A DNA stretch of 22,995 nt from a virus: the IMG/VR virus record IMGVR_UViG_3300024262_000259, positions 1 through 22,995 of that record, one strand, 5' to 3'. Below are positions 1-10,334 of this stretch, piece by piece. A program made the translations under genes and the position numbers. Under the pieces are notes generated by a model, which searched no databases, was not told the origin of the DNA, and saw only the letters and a program-made list of their open reading frames with translations. Numbering within the stretch: position 1 is the stretch's first letter; each line of letters opens with the position of its first letter.

Positions 1-386
1 TCATTATGTCTCATCATATCTCATCTACACCCTATATCTACTTTTTAGATAAAATAAAAAAGATTGGATTTAAAGGATTCATTTGTAATCATTTACAATT
101 TTTAAAATGTATTTCTAAAAATGATATTACCTTCTAGAAAGACGTTTAAAGTCATTTCAATAATAGGTAGTTGAGATTACTATTTTTATTTTTAGAACAA
201 AACAACCATAAACAGGAGAGGGTATCAGGATATCCATCCTTTTGTTTAAAAGATCAATTTAAATGAATGGGTCCAGATGATTGTCTATCTTGCAATCATC
301 TGACTCATCATTTTTTTAAAAGAATTTCTAATTCAGCTTTTGTTAGGAATTCTAAAATTAAAAAAAGCATAGAATGAGGTAATAGG
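1..386. promoter_or_regulatory. AT-rich non-coding leader upstream of the polymerase gene
   Basis: No credible gene is visible on either strand in this leader. It contains several dyads: TTGTAA-N4-TTACAA at 83-98, TATCTA-N5-TAGATA at 35-51, a 10-bp perfect stem at 274-283/293-302 with a 9-nt loop, and an imperfect 8-bp stem at 321-328/346-353. A run of seven T begins at 311, eight bases after the 10-bp stem, so that hairpin is only a weak terminator candidate for whatever lies upstream. The decamer CCTTCTAGAA (130-139) recurs in the non-coding region after the capsid gene (11956-11965). The leader probably carries the promoter or operator for the operon starting at 387, and possibly a replication origin because it abuts a polymerase gene. 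Those roles are inference. Confidence 0.4.
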
Positions 387-1796
387 ATGTTTAATCTGTA
401 TGAGAAAGTTCCGTATCAGAAGATTTTTGAAATGTTAGAGATCTCTGATATAAGTTCTCAGTTAGGAAATGGTAGACCAACTAAGCGATCTCTAAAGAAT
501 GAGAAGAAACAATTACGAGTAGTATGGTTTATCGAGGAGATTTTTAGTAGGCAACTTTACTGGTCTAGTTTAGATAGTGACAACTATCCAGTATGCGAGT
601 TTGATGAGTGTAATCATTTCAATTTTTGCTCTATTGAACGACAAAGGATACTAGGGGCCCTAAATCCTACTCTAATATTGAAAGCATTGGCTGATTTAAA
701 GGTCATTAGCACAGTTAGGGGATACTCATATACCGACAAGTATCACAAACCTTATTTATACCGTTTTATCGATCATCCTGGGCCTGTTATAGGTAAAATG
801 AGAATGAGACGGGAGTTTAAGAATCTTAAGAAGTCAGTTAAATCATTATATGAACTGCGGGTTTCTCCATTAAAGCAAGCTGGATTGATGCCAATTGCAT
901 ATCAGTTAGCACAGTTATCATTCAATATTACTGAAGATGAGTTTAAAGAGATTGTAATAAAACGTTATCCTAAGTATGAGAAGAATAAGATTGAAAATAA
1001 CAAAGATGCAAAATCTCTAAAAGATTATCTTAAAATCCAACAATCTCAGCTAAATAGAATTTATGAATGGAATAATGAAAGTGTCAGTGAAAGGATTTCG
1101 AAACACTTTCGCATTGATGAGTTTTCAGGTAGACTACATACTATCTTTTCAACTATGATGAAAGAGATCCGAGCATATGTAGTGTCTGGGAAGGATCAGA
1201 TCTTTTTCAATGAGATTGATATCGTTGTATCTCAGTTATCATTTATGGCAAATATGATGTACAAGGATGGTGTAAGAGGAGAATGGATAAATAGCGTATT
1301 ACATGGAGAAACTGATCCTCATACTTTTACAGCTAATAAGTTAGGAATATCTAGAATTAATGCCAAGAAGATCAATTATACTATTCTGTTTTGCCCTGTA
1401 TTCTCACAACATCATCAGGATTTTTGTAAATCGTTCCCAGCAGAAGGTGAATTTTTAACTAATCTGAAAAAAACAAAGTCGAAGAATCTTGCAGAAAAGT
1501 ATACATATAAGTATCAGCATGATAAAGATGGCAACATGATCCAGAACAAAGACGGATCATTTAGAAAATCTTCAACCATCTATAAGTCAGCGTCATGTGA
1601 GATGCAAAAGGTAGAAACTGAATTGATGAAGAAAGTATGGAAAAAGCTGAGAAAGTGCAAAGTTCATTTTTTACCAGTTCATGATGCAGTATATGTAGAA
1701 AGAAGTTTTGCTAAGGAAGCTGAGAGAATAGTACTAGACATTCTAAATCAAGATTATTATAAGTTTAGTATTACCAATAAGGAGATTTCGAAATGA
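387..1796 (+). CDS. Compact family-A DNA polymerase-like replication protein
   Basis: This 469-residue protein carries the signature positions of a PolA/T7-type polymerase in the right order, but it has no 3'-5' exonuclease domain and is about half the usual size. Visible matches, with Klenow equivalents, are: GRL at 248-250 (R249 = R668), motif A around D278 (D705) with Q283 where E710 is expected, the D-x-H-T-x-T-A block at 310-316, an O-helix with exact spacing R323, K327, Y331, F335 (R754, K758, F762, Y766), Q407 (Q849), and motif C V-H-D at 431-433 (H881, D882) followed by A434 instead of E883. Both catalytic aspartates are kept. Residues about 85-128 resemble a winged helix-turn-helix, as in replication initiators. 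GAGGT at 376-380 supports the start. The stop overlaps the next start (ATGA). A replication role is likely; whether it is an active polymerase is not certain. Confidence 0.72.
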   Translation: MFNLYEKVPYQKIFEMLEISDISSQLGNGRPTKRSLKNEKKQLRVVWFIEEIFSRQLYWSSLDSDNYPVCEFDECNHFNFCSIERQRILGALNPTLILKALADLKVISTVRGYSYTDKYHKPYLYRFIDHPGPVIGKMRMRREFKNLKKSVKSLYELRVSPLKQAGLMPIAYQLAQLSFNITEDEFKEIVIKRYPKYEKNKIENNKDAKSLKDYLKIQQSQLNRIYEWNNESVSERISKHFRIDEFSGRLHTIFSTMMKEIRAYVVSGKDQIFFNEIDIVVSQLSFMANMMYKDGVRGEWINSVLHGETDPHTFTANKLGISRINAKKINYTILFCPVFSQHHQDFCKSFPAEGEFLTNLKKTKSKNLAEKYTYKYQHDKDGNMIQNKDGSFRKSSTIYKSASCEMQKVETELMKKVWKKLRKCKVHFLPVHDAVYVERSFAKEAERIVLDILNQDYYKFSITNKEISK

Positions 1797-1984
1797 AAAA
1801 ACAGAAAATGGTAACTTTAGAAATCTCAGAAGAGCTACATAAAAAGTTATGTACCATCCAACTTATGCAAAAAGAACTTCATGGTAAAAGAGAACAACTA
1901 AGAAAGATTCTAGAAAGACTCATCATCACTGAAAATGATATTCTCTATAATGAGTATCTACAATATAGGAATACATCGAAATGA
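1793..1984 (+). CDS. Small putative DNA-binding protein
   Basis: This 63-residue charged protein starts inside the stop codon of the polymerase-like gene (ATGA overlap), so the two are translationally coupled. An N-terminal stretch that could form a beta strand (M-V-T-L-E-I-S-E-E-L at about 6-15) is followed by a long, basic, helix-forming region to about residue 45. That outline resembles ribbon-helix-helix proteins, but there is no diagnostic motif and the family cannot be fixed by eye. It could act as a regulator or as an accessory to the adjacent replication protein, which is inference from position. Its TGA stop overlaps the ATG at 1981. Confidence 0.5.
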   Translation: MKKQKMVTLEISEELHKKLCTIQLMQKELHGKREQLRKILERLIITENDILYNEYLQYRNTSK

Positions 1985-2103
1985 TTGAACTAAAAACAGA
2001 TAAGAATCAACTGTTCGAATGTGAACATCTAATACCAATGCTTTTCAAGATTACAGGATGCGGCGACCTGATATATATGAAGATGAGCAAGACATCATAC
2101 TAA
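1981..2103 (+). CDS. N-terminal fragment of the first paralog, out of frame with 2058-2366
   Basis: This 40-codon frame starts with an ATG overlapping the previous stop and has AGGA about 10 bases upstream (1967-1970). Residues 1-26 resemble the N termini of the two following genes: M-I-E-L-K here against M-I-H-L-K at 2363, and L-F-K-I-T-G here against L-C-F-K-I-S-S and N-I-F-Q-I-T-D downstream. After residue 26 the resemblance stops, and it resumes one frame back (-1) in the frame read from 2058. The most economical reading is one ancestral gene of about 128 codons, 1981-2366, with a single frameshift between 2058 and 2101. No X-XXY-YYZ slippery heptamer is visible there, so a mutation or sequencing error is likelier than programmed slippage. 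Confidence 0.5.
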   Translation: MIELKTDKNQLFECEHLIPMLFKITGCGDLIYMKMSKTSY

Positions 2104-2366
2104 CACTACAACAGGTAGACGTTAGTAACTACAAAGTAGATTCTCTTATGGATAAGATAGCACCTGAGGCTAATCACATTATCAACATAAGGATAAATTC
2201 AGATTTTATTATGGATGACCAAGAAGTATTTGTGAGTGAAATAGTTCCAGACTTTAATAGTGATAAGTATATAGTAGAAGTCAGAATTAGATTCCGTAAG
2301 AAAATTCAAATAACCTACAATGGAAAAGCATCACTGACATTAACATCAGTAAACATTACACCATGA
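2058..2366 (+). CDS. Paralog 1 of a three-gene unknown family (body)
   Basis: This 102-residue reading frame is of unknown function. It shares with the next two genes a core in which a hydrophobic I-x-x-x-L segment is followed about 12 residues later by L-x-x-K-I-A/V-P-E and then H-I/L-I/V. Here the second part reads L-M-D-K-I-A-P-E-A-N-H-I-I. The C-terminal half looks like alternating beta strands. The nominal ATG at 2058 has only AGG three bases away as a ribosome site, which is too close. The frame is open upstream to 2025, and the missing N terminus is encoded in another frame from 1981. It may therefore be expressed only by frameshifting, or be the remnant of a broken gene. It ends in an ATGA overlap with the next gene. 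Confidence 0.6.
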   Translation: MRRPDIYEDEQDIILTLQQVDVSNYKVDSLMDKIAPEANHIINIRINSDFIMDDQEVFVSEIVPDFNSDKYIVEVRIRFRKKIQITYNGKASLTLTSVNITP

Positions 2367-2743
2367 TCCATTTAAAAGACCTAGTAAATAAGTATTTTAC
2401 GATTCATCCATTTGATGGTTTATGTTTCAAGATATCGTCAATTCTTAAGACAGAAGTTTGTAAACAGATAGGAATCTTTGGAAGGATTCCTAAGTCATAC
2501 GATATCCATATGGTACTCGAAGAAGTAAAATGTGATGCAGATATTGAAATACTATTGCACAAAATAGCTCCTGAAGTTCACCATCTAATTGACTTAGACA
2601 ATAAAATTGAAATTACTATAGACAATGTAGACATGTTCGTAAAAGATATTCAGTATGAAACTATTTTCGGAGAGCTAGCAGTTGTAGCAGTTCTTAGTAT
2701 TAAATATATCAAAACTAATACCGGCTTTGTATTACCAGTATGA
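2363..2743 (+). CDS. Paralog 2 of a three-gene unknown family
   Basis: This 126-residue protein of unknown function has the full-length architecture of the family: an N-terminal segment with F-K-I-S, the I-x-x-x-L helix (I-H-M-V-L-E-E-V, about residues 48-55), the L-L-H-K-I-A-P-E-V-H-H-L-I core (about 64-76), and a C-terminal region of alternating hydrophobic residues typical of beta strands. It has no signal peptide, membrane segment or cysteine motif. Its start overlaps the stop of paralog 1 (ATGA) and its stop overlaps the start of paralog 3, so all three are co-translated. Tandem duplication and divergence are seen in the sequence; the function is unknown. A small multimeric or oligomer-forming role would fit three co-expressed paralogs but is speculation. 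Confidence 0.68.
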   Translation: MIHLKDLVNKYFTIHPFDGLCFKISSILKTEVCKQIGIFGRIPKSYDIHMVLEEVKCDADIEILLHKIAPEVHHLIDLDNKIEITIDNVDMFVKDIQYETIFGELAVVAVLSIKYIKTNTGFVLPV

Positions 2744-3087
2744 TGAATGATTTACAATTTCTTTTTGATAAGATCTATCGTATTGGAGATTATGGTCTCT
2801 TCAATATATTCCAGATTACAGATTCTTCGACCATTAGTGATCATTCTATATTGAAAATTCTAAGCATCACAATGATTCTTAAAGAACTACCAAGTAATCA
2901 ATCTGAAGCAGATATACTCCTTGATAAAATAGTTCCAGAATTAGAGCATATCGTTCCATTAACTCCAATGGGAACTTTCATATTTGAAAATGGTGCAATT
3001 TTGGCTAGTAAGGAAATGAATTATGATAAAGATACCAATTCAGCAGTTATAACAGTATCTCTGACAATTCATAAAATAAAAGAATAA
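2740..3087 (+). CDS. Paralog 3 of a three-gene unknown family
   Basis: This 115-residue protein of unknown function is the last of the tandem paralogs. It keeps the family core (I-T-M-I-L-K-E-L, then L-L-D-K-I-V-P-E-L-E-H-I-V at about 60-72) and a strand-rich C terminus. Two adjacent ATG codons (2740 and 2743) could serve as start; the first overlaps the preceding stop. It ends in TAA, and a 33-base gap with TATAAATA at 3091-3098 precedes the next gene, so a new transcript could begin there. The sequence of the three paralogs has diverged widely, so the duplication is old, unlike the near-perfect duplication a little further downstream. Confidence 0.68.
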   Translation: MMNDLQFLFDKIYRIGDYGLFNIFQITDSSTISDHSILKILSITMILKELPSNQSEADILLDKIVPELEHIVPLTPMGTFIFENGAILASKEMNYDKDTNSAVITVSLTIHKIKE

Positions 3088-3120
3088 ATTATAAATATCT
3101 ATTACAACTGAGGATACATT

Positions 3121-3306
3121 ATGTCAGAAGATAAATGGACAGAGCAGGCATGGACATCTATGGCTGTTAGGAAGTCAGTAAAGGAGAAATTCGATCTTGC
3201 TTGCTCCAAAAAACATGCAAGGACAGGTGAAAAGGTAAACAAGACTGGTCTTATTGAAGAAACACTTCTTAAATTTGTTGAAAAGGAAAATAAAAACAAT
3301 GGTTAG
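3121..3306 (+). CDS. Ribbon-helix-helix-like small protein
   Basis: The 61-residue product has the outline of a small DNA-binding regulator: a short strand-forming segment (T-S-M-A-V-R-K, about 12-18), a basic helix, a loop containing G-E-K-V-N-K-T-G, and a second helix (L-I-E-E-T-L-L-K-F-V). This recalls the ribbon-helix-helix fold used by phage repressors and antitoxins, but the assignment rests on pattern only. TGAGGA (3109-3114) is the ribosome site. The last eight bases overlap the start of the next gene in another frame. The 3' end of this gene (from 3259) was copied by a tandem duplication and now forms the C terminus of the next gene. Confidence 0.6.
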   Translation: MSEDKWTEQAWTSMAVRKSVKEKFDLACSKKHARTGEKVNKTGLIEETLLKFVEKENKNNG

Positions 3307-3720
3307 CGCTAAAGTAAACAACCCAGTCAAAACCATCCCATCAGGTACTCAAGATCCAAAAGATGCTCAGATTAAGAAACTCACAGAAGAAGTTGATCAT
3401 TTCAGAAGAATCCTAAAAGTTCTACAGAGAAAGTATAAGAAACTCACAGAAGAAGTTGATCATTTCAGAAGAATCCTAAAAGTTCTACAGAGAAAGTATA
3501 ATCAACAAACTGTAGACATTGAAACACTTCTTAAATTTGTTGAAAAGGAAAATAAAAACAATGGTTAGCGCTAAAGTAAACAACCCAGTCAAAACCATCC
3601 CATCAGGTACTCAAGATCCAAAAGATGCTCAGATTAAGAAACTCACAGAAGAAGTTGATCATTTCAGAAGAATCCTAAAAGTTCTACAGAGAAAGTATAA
3701 TCAACAAACTGTAGACATTG
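3259..3720 (+). repeat. Nested tandem duplication
   Basis: Two levels of direct repeat are visible. The outer copies begin with GAAACACTTCTTAAA at 3259 and at 3521; by eye they are identical through the coiled-coil gene down to ACATTG (3720). Inside the first copy a 63-bp block (from 3374) is repeated head to tail (from 3437), so the first copy is 63 bases longer than the second. Without that block the outer offset is 199 bases, which is not a multiple of three and explains why the copied tail of the upstream gene is read in a different frame. The lack of divergence implies a recent event or an assembly artefact. Confidence 0.9.
3299..3568 (+). CDS. Chimeric coiled-coil protein created by tandem duplication
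   Basis: The product is 89 residues if started at ATG 3299; the frame also opens upstream, but AAGG at 3283-3286 favours 3299. After an N-terminal stretch with T-I-P-S-G-T-Q-D come two identical 21-residue units rich in Lys, Glu and Leu, encoded by a perfect 63-bp tandem repeat. Twenty-one residues are three heptads, so the repeat lengthens a coiled coil without breaking its register. After N-Q-Q-T-V-D-I the protein ends in E-T-L-L-K-F-V-E-K, which is the C terminus of the ribbon-helix-helix-like gene just upstream. The gene is therefore a fusion left by a duplication event, and the next gene (3561) is the likely intact parent. Confidence 0.55.
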   Translation: MVSAKVNNPVKTIPSGTQDPKDAQIKKLTEEVDHFRRILKVLQRKYKKLTEEVDHFRRILKVLQRKYNQQTVDIETLLKFVEKENKNNG

Positions 3721-3779
3721 TAAACCTTGAAGCAGCTCTTGAGTTATTAAAAGAAAGACAACAGGATGATAAAAAATGA
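3561..3779 (+). CDS. Small coiled-coil protein, likely intact parent copy
   Basis: This 72-residue protein, started at ATG 3561, is identical to the upstream gene at its N terminus but carries a single copy of the 21-residue coiled-coil unit. After N-Q-Q-T-V-D-I it continues into its own C terminus (V-N-L-E-A-A-L-E-L-L-K, then a basic tail), which extends the predicted helix. There is no signal peptide or membrane segment. It lies between two small putative nucleic-acid-binding proteins and ends in an ATGA overlap with the zinc-ribbon gene. The function is unknown. Coiled-coil oligomerisation is likely from the heptad pattern, and the two copies could form mixed oligomers. Confidence 0.6.
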   Translation: MVSAKVNNPVKTIPSGTQDPKDAQIKKLTEEVDHFRRILKVLQRKYNQQTVDIVNLEAALELLKERQQDDKK

Positions 3780-3931
3780 TTTGTCCAAAATGTATAGATA
3801 TGAATATAGTATGTAAAGAGATTTCAACTAAAGGGACAGATGATATAAAACAATTCGTTTGTCCTAATTGTGGAACTACATACTCCAGTAAAACATCAAG
3901 AAAGAAAGACTGGAATATAAAAGTTAAATGA
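3776..3931 (+). CDS. 51-residue zinc-ribbon protein
   Basis: This short frame begins with an ATG overlapping the previous stop (ATGA at 3776-3779) and ends with a TGA overlapping the next start (ATGA at 3928-3931), which strongly supports it as a real gene. The product has two paired-cysteine knuckles, C-P-K-C at residues 3-6 and C-P-N-C-G at 29-33, spaced as in a zinc ribbon, with an extra Cys at 13 and a basic C terminus (S-R-K-K). Small phage zinc ribbons often bind nucleic acid or host transcription and replication factors; here that is inference from the fold type. Confidence 0.72.
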   Translation: MICPKCIDMNIVCKEISTKGTDDIKQFVCPNCGTTYSSKTSRKKDWNIKVK

Positions 3932-4662
3932 TCTCTTTCTTAATTCCTTATAGAGATAGACAACACCATCTGAAATATCTCCCAGATAATATCTCTTCTC
4001 ATTATGATAACTATGAAATACTAATTGGTGAACAAGATGATGACTTACCATTCAAACGAGGACAACTACTAAACGTTTTAGTTGACCTTGCTCAGTTTGA
4101 AACACTTGTCCTTATGGATGTTGACTGCAGGATCATTGAAAGGATCGATTTTGAGCATTTACTGGCCACTCACGGTCTCCCAGTCATTCCTTGGTACTAT
4201 AGACAGGAAACAGAAGAACTATCCTCAAATGAGTTTAAAATTCTAATTGGTGAAAGGTATGCAAATGGTGGATTCGGTGGAATTTCCTGCTGGACTAAAG
4301 ACCAATACTTATCATCTGGTGGAGCAAGTAATCTATGTAGTGGATGGGCAGCAGAAGATTCGATAATGTTTCTAAGGACAGAGTATAAACGATTGAAAGA
4401 TGATCTCTACCATATCAAGCATAGATCCAAACCATTAGAATTCAGTACGAATAATAGTAAAAAACAATTAGTAAAACATAATAGGAGGATATGGAAGCTT
4501 ACACAAAGACATAATATTGATCCACAGCAGGATGGTATATATCAAACAATAACAGATATATGTCAAGTAGATACTACTATACCAAACTGTAAACATTTCA
4601 AAATTTCAAACATCACAGTTCCAGATACGTTTAAATATCCAGAACTATTACCAAGAGGATAA
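3928..4662 (+). CDS. GT7 (beta-1,4-galactosyltransferase-like) glycosyltransferase
   Basis: This 244-residue enzyme has the motif series of family GT7: I-P-Y-R-D-R at 6-11 in the nucleotide-binding first strand, F-K-R-G-Q-L-L-N-V at 42-50, the metal-binding D-V-D at 64-66, the G-G-F-G-G-I-S turn at 114-120, and the acceptor/sugar-specificity block S-N-x-x-x-G-W-A-A-E-D at 134-144 (W-G-G-E-D in animal enzymes). It would transfer a sugar, probably galactose or GalNAc, from a UDP donor. No signal peptide or transmembrane anchor is seen, so it should be cytoplasmic, and the C-terminal 90 residues are not clearly part of the catalytic core. It starts inside the stop of the zinc-ribbon gene. The target is unknown: virion protein, DNA base or host glycan are all possible. 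Confidence 0.8.
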   Translation: MISFLIPYRDRQHHLKYLPDNISSHYDNYEILIGEQDDDLPFKRGQLLNVLVDLAQFETLVLMDVDCRIIERIDFEHLLATHGLPVIPWYYRQETEELSSNEFKILIGERYANGGFGGISCWTKDQYLSSGGASNLCSGWAAEDSIMFLRTEYKRLKDDLYHIKHRSKPLEFSTNNSKKQLVKHNRRIWKLTQRHNIDPQQDGIYQTITDICQVDTTIPNCKHFKISNITVPDTFKYPELLPRG

Positions 4663-6075: not shown

Positions 6076-6558
6076 ATGGCAACAAAGAAAGCAAAAAAGA
6101 AATCTAATGCTGGAAGAAAGTCAAAATACGATCCAGAGACTTTTCCAAAGCTAGCAGAAGAATTTGCCAGACAAGGAATGATAGATTTAGACATAATTAA
6201 GGCTCTCGGAATAAGTCATACAATGTTCTATACATACCAAAATAGACACCCGGAATTCAAGGAGGCTTTAAAAAGAGGGAAGGCTCCAGTTAACATAGAA
6301 GTAGAGAATGCTTTACTAAAAGCTGCCAGAGGATATATAGCTGAAGAAGTCCAAGAAGACATCCGAGTAGACAAGGATGGTAATGAAGTAATCTACAATA
6401 AAGTTAAGAAGAAAAAAGAAGTTCCCTCTAATATTACTGCTTGTATTTTCTGGTTGAAGAATAGGAAACCAGAAGTATGGAGAGATAAAGTTGAAGCTGA
6501 TGTGAATGTTAAAGGAGATATCAAAGTTTCTTTCGATAAAGAAGATGAAGATCTTTAA
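6076..6558 (+). CDS. terS: Terminase small subunit
   Basis: This 160-residue protein would recognise the packaging start on the phage DNA and load the large subunit. It opens with a Lys-rich arm and G-R-K-S-K-Y-D-P (13-20), typical of terS proteins. A helix-turn-helix at about 36-58 follows (I-I-K-A-L-G-I-S-H-T-M-F-Y-T-Y), then the F-K-E-A-L-K-R-G-K helix, an oligomerisation region, and N-R-K-P-E-V-W-R-D-K, another family hallmark. The acidic C terminus fits contact with the large subunit, whose gene starts in the stop codon (TAATG). GAGAGGA precedes the start. Its location immediately before the large terminase makes the assignment firm. Confidence 0.88.
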   Translation: MATKKAKKKSNAGRKSKYDPETFPKLAEEFARQGMIDLDIIKALGISHTMFYTYQNRHPEFKEALKRGKAPVNIEVENALLKAARGYIAEEVQEDIRVDKDGNEVIYNKVKKKKEVPSNITACIFWLKNRKPEVWRDKVEADVNVKGDIKVSFDKEDEDL

Positions 6559-7919
6559 TGCCAACCTTCAAAAAGAATTCTGGACAAGTACGAGCAATAA
6601 AGCTGTTATGTGACAAATCACGTTACAATATGCTTTATGGGTCATCAAGATCTGGAAAGTCTTTCATCTGCGCCTATGCTTTGTTTGTGAGAGCATTCAA
6701 AGCACCTGGTAGCAGACATGCAATAGTAAGAAGGTATCTTACCAATGTTAGAAGATCAATGTGGGATGGAACACTACAAGATATTATCAAACTGAAATTC
6801 CCGGATGTAAAATTCAGATTGAATAATCAAGATCTTGTCATTCATTTCCCTAATGGATCTACAATAGAACTTTTTGGTTTAGATGATAAGCAACGAGCAG
6901 ATCGTATTCTTGGTTTAGAGTTTTCCAGCTTTCTGTTTGAAGAATGTTCAGAGTTAGACTATTCATCCATCCAAGTGGCTCTAACAAGATTGGCTCAGAA
7001 AAATGACTTGAAGAAGAAAGCATACTTCACTCAGAATCCTACTGTAAAATCCCATTGGTCATATCAAACATTTATATTGCTTAAAGATCCTCTAGATGGT
7101 CATGACCTAGATACAGAGATGTATTCATATCTCAAAATGTCTACTGAGGATAATCTAGACAACATAGATAAGGATTATCTTAAGACTCTAGAATCCCTAC
7201 CATTTGTTCAAAGAAAGAGATTCCTGGCTGGTGAGTTCTCAGATGATATAGAAGGCGCTCTATTCAAACAGCTCTGGATTGAAAAGGGACGAGTATCTTC
7301 CTCAGATGAATTTCAATATGATAAAACTGTAATCTCATTGGACCCATCTGGCTCATCCAATAAATCTTCAGATGAATGTGGTATAGTAGTCACTAGTAAG
7401 AAAGATGAAGAATATTATGTGAATGAAGATGCTACTGATCAATTATCTCCTGCAATGTGGGCAAGGAAAGCAGTAGAGCTGTATTATAAGTATGAAGCCA
7501 ACTATATTTTAGCAGAAGTTAATTTTGGTGCAGACATGGTCGTGGAATGTATTAGAGCAGTGGATAAGTTTATCAAAATTGAAACAGTAAGAGCTTCAAA
7601 GGGAAAATTGATTCGGGCAGAACCGGTTTCAAGTCTATATGAATTTGATCAAGTTCATCATGTGGGTATCTTTCCTGAATTGGAAATGGAAATGACCAGC
7701 TATCTTGGTGAAGGTAAATCTCCAAACCGATTAGATGCACTTGTTTGGGGCATTACAGATCTATCTGGTGGTAAGAAGTTCATAAAACCATCATTCACAA
7801 ATATCGAAGAACCAAAGAAAGAACCTGGAAAATTTGAAATTAAACAACCAGAATATAAAGAAGATGATAGGTCGATGGTAGATATTATTGAAGACGAAGA
7901 CATGTGGAGTGAAATGTAG
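6558..7919 (+). CDS. terL: Terminase large subunit (ATPase-nuclease)
   Basis: The 453-residue packaging motor has an N-terminal ATPase with Walker A G-S-S-R-S-G-K-S (28-35) and Walker B F-L-F-E-E (125-129), the coupling segment F-T-Q-N-P (157-161), and a C-terminal RNase H-like nuclease with D262 (S-L-D-P-S-G), E320 (L-A-E-V-N-F) and D393 (R-L-D-A-L) as likely metal ligands. Length and motifs match the PBSX-type large terminase family. It translocates DNA into the prohead through the portal and cuts the concatemer. The start overlaps the terS stop by one base, so the pair is coupled. The C-terminal 50 residues are acidic and may be a portal-docking tail. Confidence 0.93.
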   Translation: MPTFKKNSGQVRAIKLLCDKSRYNMLYGSSRSGKSFICAYALFVRAFKAPGSRHAIVRRYLTNVRRSMWDGTLQDIIKLKFPDVKFRLNNQDLVIHFPNGSTIELFGLDDKQRADRILGLEFSSFLFEECSELDYSSIQVALTRLAQKNDLKKKAYFTQNPTVKSHWSYQTFILLKDPLDGHDLDTEMYSYLKMSTEDNLDNIDKDYLKTLESLPFVQRKRFLAGEFSDDIEGALFKQLWIEKGRVSSSDEFQYDKTVISLDPSGSSNKSSDECGIVVTSKKDEEYYVNEDATDQLSPAMWARKAVELYYKYEANYILAEVNFGADMVVECIRAVDKFIKIETVRASKGKLIRAEPVSSLYEFDQVHHVGIFPELEMEMTSYLGEGKSPNRLDALVWGITDLSGGKKFIKPSFTNIEEPKKEPGKFEIKQPEYKEDDRSMVDIIEDEDMWSEM

Positions 7920-9230: not shown

Positions 9231-10334
9231 ATGAAAACTAAGTTAAATCTCAAGAAATTTCTTACACACCTTTCTGACGAGATGCAAGAAGGAATTGATT
9301 CTTGTTTGAAAGAATGTGAAGTTGATAATCCATATTTGAAAAGAATGGGTATGGTAGGAGATCTTACAATCTATAAGGGTGAAGAAAGAATTGTCCTTGC
9401 TACTATATCTAAAGTTGCTCTAGATCGTGATAGAGAAGTAGTAATGTCTAGTGGAATGGATATATCACAATATGAGAAGAATCCAGTAATCCTGGTGAAT
9501 CATAACTGGTCAGGAATTCCTGTAGGTCAATCATTACACACTATGACCTATCCAGATAGAGTTAGACAGAAGATCCAATTTGATTCAGATGAAGAATCCC
9601 TTACAATTTTCAATAAGTACCAATCTAAATCCCTTCGTGCATTTTCAGTTGGATTCGTTCCAATGGAGATAGCTGAAAATGGAGCTGCATTATTCAACCA
9701 GTATGCTGATATGGTTATTCAGGCTGGTTTTATGGATATAAAGGATGTAGATAATACTAAAAGATTCATTACTAAGTCTCTTCTTATTGAAAATTCAGTT
9801 GTAACTATTCCAGCTAATACTGAAGCTATTGCAGAAGCTATTTCTGATACTGAAGAAGTAGTTCCTGAAGAAGTTATTGAAACTCAACAAGACACATCAG
9901 GAATGCTTACTATTCAAACCCAAGCATCCAATAATGATGATGTTAAAACTAAAGATGTTTCAGAAGACATTCCTGAAGAAGATGAAATTCTTTCTGAAGA
10001 TGATTTAGAGGAAGTATTAGATATCATTGACTCTGAAGTTCTTGGTCCTGATGATGAAGAGAATTATGAAGAAGAGATTCCAGTAGAAGATGAAATTCTT
10101 TCTGAAGATGATTTAGAGGAAGTATTAGATATCATTGACTCTGAAGTTCTTGGTCCTGATGATGAAGAGAATGAAGATCCAGAGAATGAAGAAGAGATTC
10201 CAGTAGTTCCAGAAATCAAAACAGTAATCAGATTGATCAAACGGGCAACACCAGTAGAAGTTAAACAATTGACTGATGCTGATATTTCATTTATAGCTAA
10301 GCAAGAGATTTATAAGTCATTTGGAGGGATATAG
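9231..10334 (+). CDS. Prohead protease (HK97 type) with duplicated acidic tail
   Basis: Residues about 40-205 are an HK97-family (S78-like) serine protease that matures the prohead by trimming the scaffold part of the capsid protein. Likely catalytic residues are H91 (V-N-H-N-W) and S139 (A-F-S-V-G-F), with E187 in L-L-I-E-N-S-V-V-T-I-P-A-N as third-residue candidate. From about 205 the protein becomes extremely acidic. It contains two nearly identical 36-residue units (D-E-I-L-S-E-D-D-L-E-E-V core), then a short basic end (L-I-K-R-A). At 367 residues it is longer than a bare protease. The acidic tail may act as scaffold or internal head protein, which is inference. GGAGA about ten bases upstream supports the start. 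Confidence 0.88.
   Translation: MKTKLNLKKFLTHLSDEMQEGIDSCLKECEVDNPYLKRMGMVGDLTIYKGEERIVLATISKVALDRDREVVMSSGMDISQYEKNPVILVNHNWSGIPVGQSLHTMTYPDRVRQKIQFDSDEESLTIFNKYQSKSLRAFSVGFVPMEIAENGAALFNQYADMVIQAGFMDIKDVDNTKRFITKSLLIENSVVTIPANTEAIAEAISDTEEVVPEEVIETQQDTSGMLTIQTQASNNDDVKTKDVSEDIPEEDEILSEDDLEEVLDIIDSEVLGPDDEENYEEEIPVEDEILSEDDLEEVLDIIDSEVLGPDDEENEDPENEEEIPVVPEIKTVIRLIKRATPVEVKQLTDADISFIAKQEIYKSFGGI
9978..10172 (+). repeat. In-frame tandem duplication in the protease tail
   Basis: The 87 bases at 9978-10064 recur without change at 10086-10172, an offset of 108 bases or 36 codons. The short flank GAAGAAGAGATTCCAGTAG also occurs twice (10068 and 10188). Perfect identity indicates recent duplication or conversion. 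Confidence 0.9.

Follow-up and report, generated by a model that had tools for sequence, protein, structure and literature searches.

A divergent phage protein in a large, mostly unannotated family of predicted TV-Pol-like minimal polymerases

Introduction

TV-Pols, which were defined by Iyer, Abhiman and Aravind in 2008 and predicted to have both primase and polymerase activity, are minimal family-A-like polymerases of 400-600 aa with two Asp residues, a conserved Arg, an RxxxK motif, and no nuclease (PMC2579912). They occur on mobile elements of Bacteroidota and Planctomycetes and in phages, have integrase neighbours with restriction genes nearby, and are linked to D5-like helicases or to an all-helical N-terminal domain (PMC2579912). 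CCPol of the staphylococcal cassette chromosomes also has a family-A palm and resides on an integrative element with a recombinase; together with MP, which has a predicted OB fold, it has been proven to synthesise DNA primers with its polymerase active site, whereas without MP it can only elongate them, and its gene adjoins that of a D5-type helicase (PMC7581432). Rice extended CCPol-MP to the PolA-SSB primases, which a survey found in Bacillota only (PMC10061031). Finally, a 2024 survey described divPolA1 and divPolA2 as phage proteins that are present beside a regular polymerase; divPolA2, from barbaviruses and related phages, has a palm domain and a novel N-terminal domain and coexists with PolB (PMC11348598).

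Here, we compare with these systems a protein encoded in a 22,995-base stretch of DNA (the window), which is an entire virus record. Because the window has no terminal repeat and its end falls in a Ser-codon repeat, it is probably a fragment of a phage genome; no integrase gene was seen in it.

Results

The polymerase ORF and its surroundings

The residues from which the original prediction read a minimal polymerase with family-A motifs (R249, D278, R323-K327-Y331-F335, Q407, and H432-D433) all lie at the claimed positions in an ORF that encodes 469 residues. The features of this ORF and of the gene that overlaps its end are as follows:

387..1796, + strand: TV-Pol-like minimal family-A-fold polymerase, 469 aa (ORF; structure model and fold search; family profile, 57.8 bits)
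489..776, + strand: aa 35-130, winged-helix-like N-terminal segment (predicted topology; same order in the relative L025)
882..1763, + strand: aa 166-459, thumb-palm-fingers (alignment to Klenow 541-914)
1128..1142, + strand: aa 248-252, GRLHT, with the Arg invariant in the family (49/49 rows; compare GRLHTNF in phage G20c Pol I, E=0.95)
1218..1235, + strand: aa 278-283, DIVVSQ, motif A with the putative catalytic Asp and Gln at +5 (D278, S282, and Q283 in 49/49)
1353..1391, + strand: aa 323-335, RxxxKxxxYxxxF, motif B, fingers helix (K327 and F335 invariant; R323 is R or K)
1605..1616, + strand: aa 407-410, QxxE (Q in 46/49, E in 49/49)
1680..1688, + strand: aa 432-434, HDA, motif C with the putative second catalytic Asp (H432 and D433 invariant; third residue Ser in 48/49)
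1793..1984, + strand: 63-aa ORF overlapping the polymerase stop codon (ATGA) (ORF list)

The product of the 63-aa ORF is possibly a small DNA-binding or partner protein. Directly 3' of the polymerase operon, three tandem small ORFs (2058-3087; 102, 126, and 115 aa) look paralogous and have a common DKIxPExxHiI-like stretch. Further along the window, a 200-nt tandem duplication with 96% identity (3259-3458 and 3521-3720) lies within overlapping small ORFs, a 108-nt tandem repeat with 95% identity (9962-10177) encodes an acidic repeat inside an ORF read as a capsid protease, and two ORFs amid the phage genes (3928-4662 and 13222-14628) resemble glycosyltransferases by reading only. The large terminase (6558-7919) has its closest counterparts, at 39%, in the Synechococcus phages Ssp-JY42 and Yong-M4-211 rather than in Bacteroidota phages.

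Recovery of a large family by motif search

By sequence, the window protein had no meaningful match in Pfam, NCBIfam, or the PDB, and PF00476 (DNA_pol_A) did not match the window record even at E<=10. Neither tblastn of phages and plasmids nor viral and genome scans with window peptides gave a usable relative; a phrog of unknown function (phrog_16320) matched residues 292-335 weakly (E=9e-4). The lack of sequence matches in Pfam, NCBIfam, and the PDB would suit an unrelated protein with chance motif matches, an explanation that is already contradicted by the structure, profile scores, and shuffles described below and to which we give almost no weight.

Relatives were recovered with a degenerate DNA pattern for the H-T to D..SQ stretch around motif A, which matched the window once and shuffled sequences not at all. 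The pattern returned 21 viral stretches, of which 20 encode related proteins, and those of sufficient length have all later motifs, in order. A second viral search with a nine-sequence alignment of only the GR.HT stretch returned 71 viral loci, and a looser pattern run on 84,980 species genomes of bacteria and archaea returned 64 stretches, including about 60 clear members (84-286 bits), nearly all from Bacteroidota together with two Pirellulales MAGs. One motif match (L020) and several short-frame matches were attributed to chance and dropped. In total, the motif search gave more than 130 members. Among 395 sampled Bacteroidota genomes, 15 have the family, with up to five matched stretches per genome, and one member, annotated only as a hypothetical protein, is encoded on the Hymenobacter qilianensis plasmid NZ_CP060788.1.

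To score the window protein, HMMER was used with --max and calibrated on shuffles, as the default filters concealed this protein. A profile built without it gave 53.0 bits (E=1.3e-18 for one sequence), and a profile of 133 other members gave 57.8 bits, with the match spanning residues 78-455. The sequence beyond the search pattern alone scored 36.0 bits against a best score of 11.7 among 5,000 shuffles, which, together with the near-invariance of the motifs in 49 aligned relatives, shows that the motifs listed in the original prediction did not arise by chance. The N-terminal part alone scored 1.3 bits, which is not significant. Bacterial and jumbo-phage members align from end to end as a single family (hhalign E=5e-65); in the tree, the window protein is a lone long branch with weakly supported placement. 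Based on these sequence comparisons, the window protein is a divergent member of a large, mostly unannotated family.

A family-A fold in the C-terminal 300 residues

As proposed with the original prediction, we examined structure models. The model of the relative L025 has a mean pLDDT of 89.3 and a pTM of 0.82, and that of the window protein has a pLDDT of 65.4 overall, rising to about 82-94 at residues 281-360 and 78-92 at residues 401-460. In the window model, residues 166-459 align with Klenow 541-914 (Z 11.3, rmsd 7.8, 258 residues), and the L025 model aligns with Pol theta (Z 13.6, 237 residues, rmsd 3.0). For both models, family-A DNA polymerases rank first with Foldseek and VIA-align. 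At the profile-profile level, the family aligned with 23 PolA sequences with a score of 36.7 (hhalign E=8.5e-4; best of 60 column-shuffled controls, 24.4) and with all motifs in order; the relation to DNA_pol_A proper shows only in this comparison, with no match of the window record to the PF00476 profile. Thus, the palm/fingers fold is present in the model, profile searching did not place the protein in an unrelated family, and a family-A thumb-palm-fingers fold in the C-terminal 300 residues is well supported by the models. Like DNA polymerase I, the protein would have thumb, palm, and fingers with motifs A, B, and C; unlike Klenow, it has no exonuclease domains and about 20 fewer residues before motif A. 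The predicted lack of an exonuclease domain was borne out in that nothing in the window model aligned with one.

We also considered that the protein could be a single-subunit RNA polymerase for phage transcription. Its relatives share with T7 RNA polymerase the Ser that follows HD, and mitochondrial RNA polymerases do appear further down the fold list; however, the best 50 Foldseek matches are all family-A DNA polymerases, comparison with the T7 and SP6 RNA polymerase profiles gave no significant match (E=0.54 and 0.07), and the family is found on islands and a plasmid. We therefore regard this explanation as very improbable.

Conserved residues and the altered acidic positions

R249, D278, K327, F335, K361, E410, H432, and D433 are invariant in the 49 aligned sequences, position 323 holds either R or K, and 46 sequences have Q at position 407. 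HD is followed by Ser in 48 rows and by Ala only in the window. Gln at +5 of D278 is invariant, also in relatives that were not selected on Gln. In a wider 134-row set, in which H251, T252, R262, D278, and Q283 were partly selected by the search patterns, position 335 holds F in 116 rows and Y in 15.

According to the original prediction, the acidic residues equivalent to Klenow E710 and E883 are replaced by Gln and Ala. Both residues are there: these positions are Gln/Ala in the window and Gln/Ser in relatives, with no Glu. The equivalence of Q283 and E710 presupposes an ungapped motif A and is likely but not proven, because in a profile-profile alternative the SQ of the family pairs with the SQ of DYSQ. 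From their distribution in the alignment, the Gln and Ser/Ala substitutions are old family traits, not decay.

The changes at the E710 and E883 positions could also point to a DNA-binding initiator in which the palm is a structural relic, and related elements have RRM-only, possibly inactive palms (PMC10061031). Yet both Asp residues, RxxxK, the Arg, and QxxE are retained across highly divergent members, and because the Asp pair, RxxxK, and QxxE show little or no variation, catalysis is likely retained; a relic palm is accordingly an improbable explanation.

A predicted winged-helix N-terminus

In the window model, the predicted N-terminal topology is H35-62, E78-79, H83-89, H94-103, E107-109, E124-127, with a pLDDT of about 47-75. 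In both models the elements follow the order helix-strand-helix-helix-strand-wing-strand, which is the winged-helix order; it is modelled confidently in L025 and poorly in the window protein itself. In the full-length profile match, which starts at aa 78, the N-terminal part of the window protein pairs only weakly with that of the family. By sequence, no solved winged helix in the PDB was recognised; the matches that appeared were to AAV Rep68, to viral RNA polymerases, and to a repeat protein, and we took none of them as a true relative. The winged helix of the original prediction stands as a predicted topology only.

Genomic context of relatives

Neighbouring genes of the relatives were clustered, and selected representatives were scanned and named. 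A tyrosine-recombinase cluster lies at most four genes away in 35 of 59 bacterial loci; within the same distance, 15 loci have an HTH_17 (excisionase-like) gene, 11 an AAA_24 ATPase, and 8 DUF3871. Further neighbours include a type I restriction methylase, a QueC/DpnII-type protein, a CAP12-TIR effector, and a terminase. In four 8-kb bacterial loci (L133, L121, L111, and L106), family members lie beside restriction, QueC/DpnII, and CAP12-TIR genes. We infer that the bacterial loci are defence-carrying integrative islands of Bacteroidota, and prophages. A full-length PolA is present in all 20 host genomes tested. The Hymenobacter plasmid (L096) has two replication-like regions (1-4398 and 27817-30450), with the family gene near one end and ParA and an annotated initiator at the other.

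Among the family-bearing phage contigs, 15 of the 17 longer than 120 kb encode PolB or PolIII alpha, for which reason we rejected the idea that the family protein is the sole polymerase of its large phages. DnaB is present in 13 of 28 contigs and DNAG_N in 1 of 28; Zn_ribbon_DnaG was found in 0 of the 17 large contigs, at least 5 of which have a Toprim-type primase-like ORF (Toprim_2), weakening the idea that the protein replaces a missing primase there. Because several smaller contigs are fragments that share jumbo-phage neighbourhoods, absences in them are uninformative. In two loci (L077 in G010 and L087 in G013), the family gene adjoins a second short PF00476-type polymerase, and these phages also encode PolIII alpha and DnaB.

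The separate PolB or PolIII alpha in the large phages would fit an accessory or repair polymerase for gap filling or lesion bypass rather than an initiator or primase, and a repair role has been suggested for the similar divPolA2 (PMC11348598). A repair polymerase would, however, leave unexplained both the conserved N-terminal domain and why integrase and excisionase-like genes accompany the family in small islands of PolA-bearing hosts, and we consider it unlikely.

Comparison with described systems

The family has the sequence features of TV-Pols (RxxxK in the fingers, an Arg before the palm, two Asp residues, and no fused nuclease), and its relatives share their location on mobile elements and in viruses with a link to integrases; it differs from TV-Pols in its predicted winged-helix N-terminus. 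In Ma-LMM01, which was the only TV-Pol yardstick and in which the TV-Pol gene could not be pinned with certainty, no ORF matches the family profile. The family fits the TV-Pol group by features and is of a kind that is already known. The original prediction held that a single protein that binds an origin and primes or extends DNA would be unusual; that it would lack precedent is wrong, as the same kind of protein is known from TV-Pols (PMC2579912) and from CCPol-MP (PMC7581432). From models and alignments, three points appear distinctive: the winged helix predicted at the N-terminus, the Gln that never varies, and the breadth of use in jumbo phages and islands of Bacteroidota.

Unlike the present family, CCPol keeps equivalents of E710 and F762, with E710 being the one lacking here, and no winged helix has been described for it (PMC7581432). 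With regard to divPolA2, a 435-aa protein of Rheinheimera phage Barba31A is in the BFVD fold list (E=5e-6, TM-score about 0.35). A much closer structural match to L025 is A0A8D9FR19 from an uncultured marine phage (TM 0.88, 37% identity, 393 columns); its name, 'Putative DNA polymerase I', is a database label only, and a literature search found no study of it.

Discussion

We suggest that the window protein is a phage-encoded, TV-Pol-like replication protein of the kind that is carried by mobile elements and primes or extends DNA, a reading that we consider reasonably probable. Several lines of evidence favour it. The family-A fold in two models, the profile-profile match to PolA, and the retained motifs argue for a replication protein, as does the presence of a host PolA in all genomes tested; relatives sit on islands and a plasmid, where mobile elements carry a rep or primase gene; and TV-Pols were predicted to be primase-polymerases on similar evidence (PMC2579912), while priming by CCPol-MP is proven (PMC7581432). 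By analogy with TV-Pols and CCPol-MP, the family protein may both bind an origin and prime. In such a mechanism, the N-terminal winged helix would hold DNA, perhaps at the origin of the element, where the palm would make or extend a short primer or first strand, and the host or phage replicase would then elongate it.

Several points count against this reading: CCPol primes only with MP and keeps the E710 equivalent (PMC7581432), some large phages have the Toprim-type primase-like ORF, a scan of DNA 1-386 for iterons found no array, and the Hymenobacter plasmid encodes another replication initiator, which is annotated as such. A bolder version of the replication-protein reading, which we consider possible but rather unlikely, is that one polypeptide would combine origin recognition by the winged helix with primer synthesis, that the invariant Gln would replace the sugar-selecting Glu, and that islands, plasmids, and phages would initiate with this protein as their entire module, needing no SSB-like partner such as CCPol requires.

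The family is widespread, yet it is unnamed in Bacteroidota genomes and jumbo phages because the versions of Pfam, NCBIfam, and PADLOC tested have no entry for it. The choice between ribo- and deoxynucleotides can be tested through the invariant Gln and the F or Y of motif B. If the family does prime DNA, the third, PolA-type class of primases would extend beyond Bacillota, and the family would offer a single-gene model of primer-free initiation by a polymerase.
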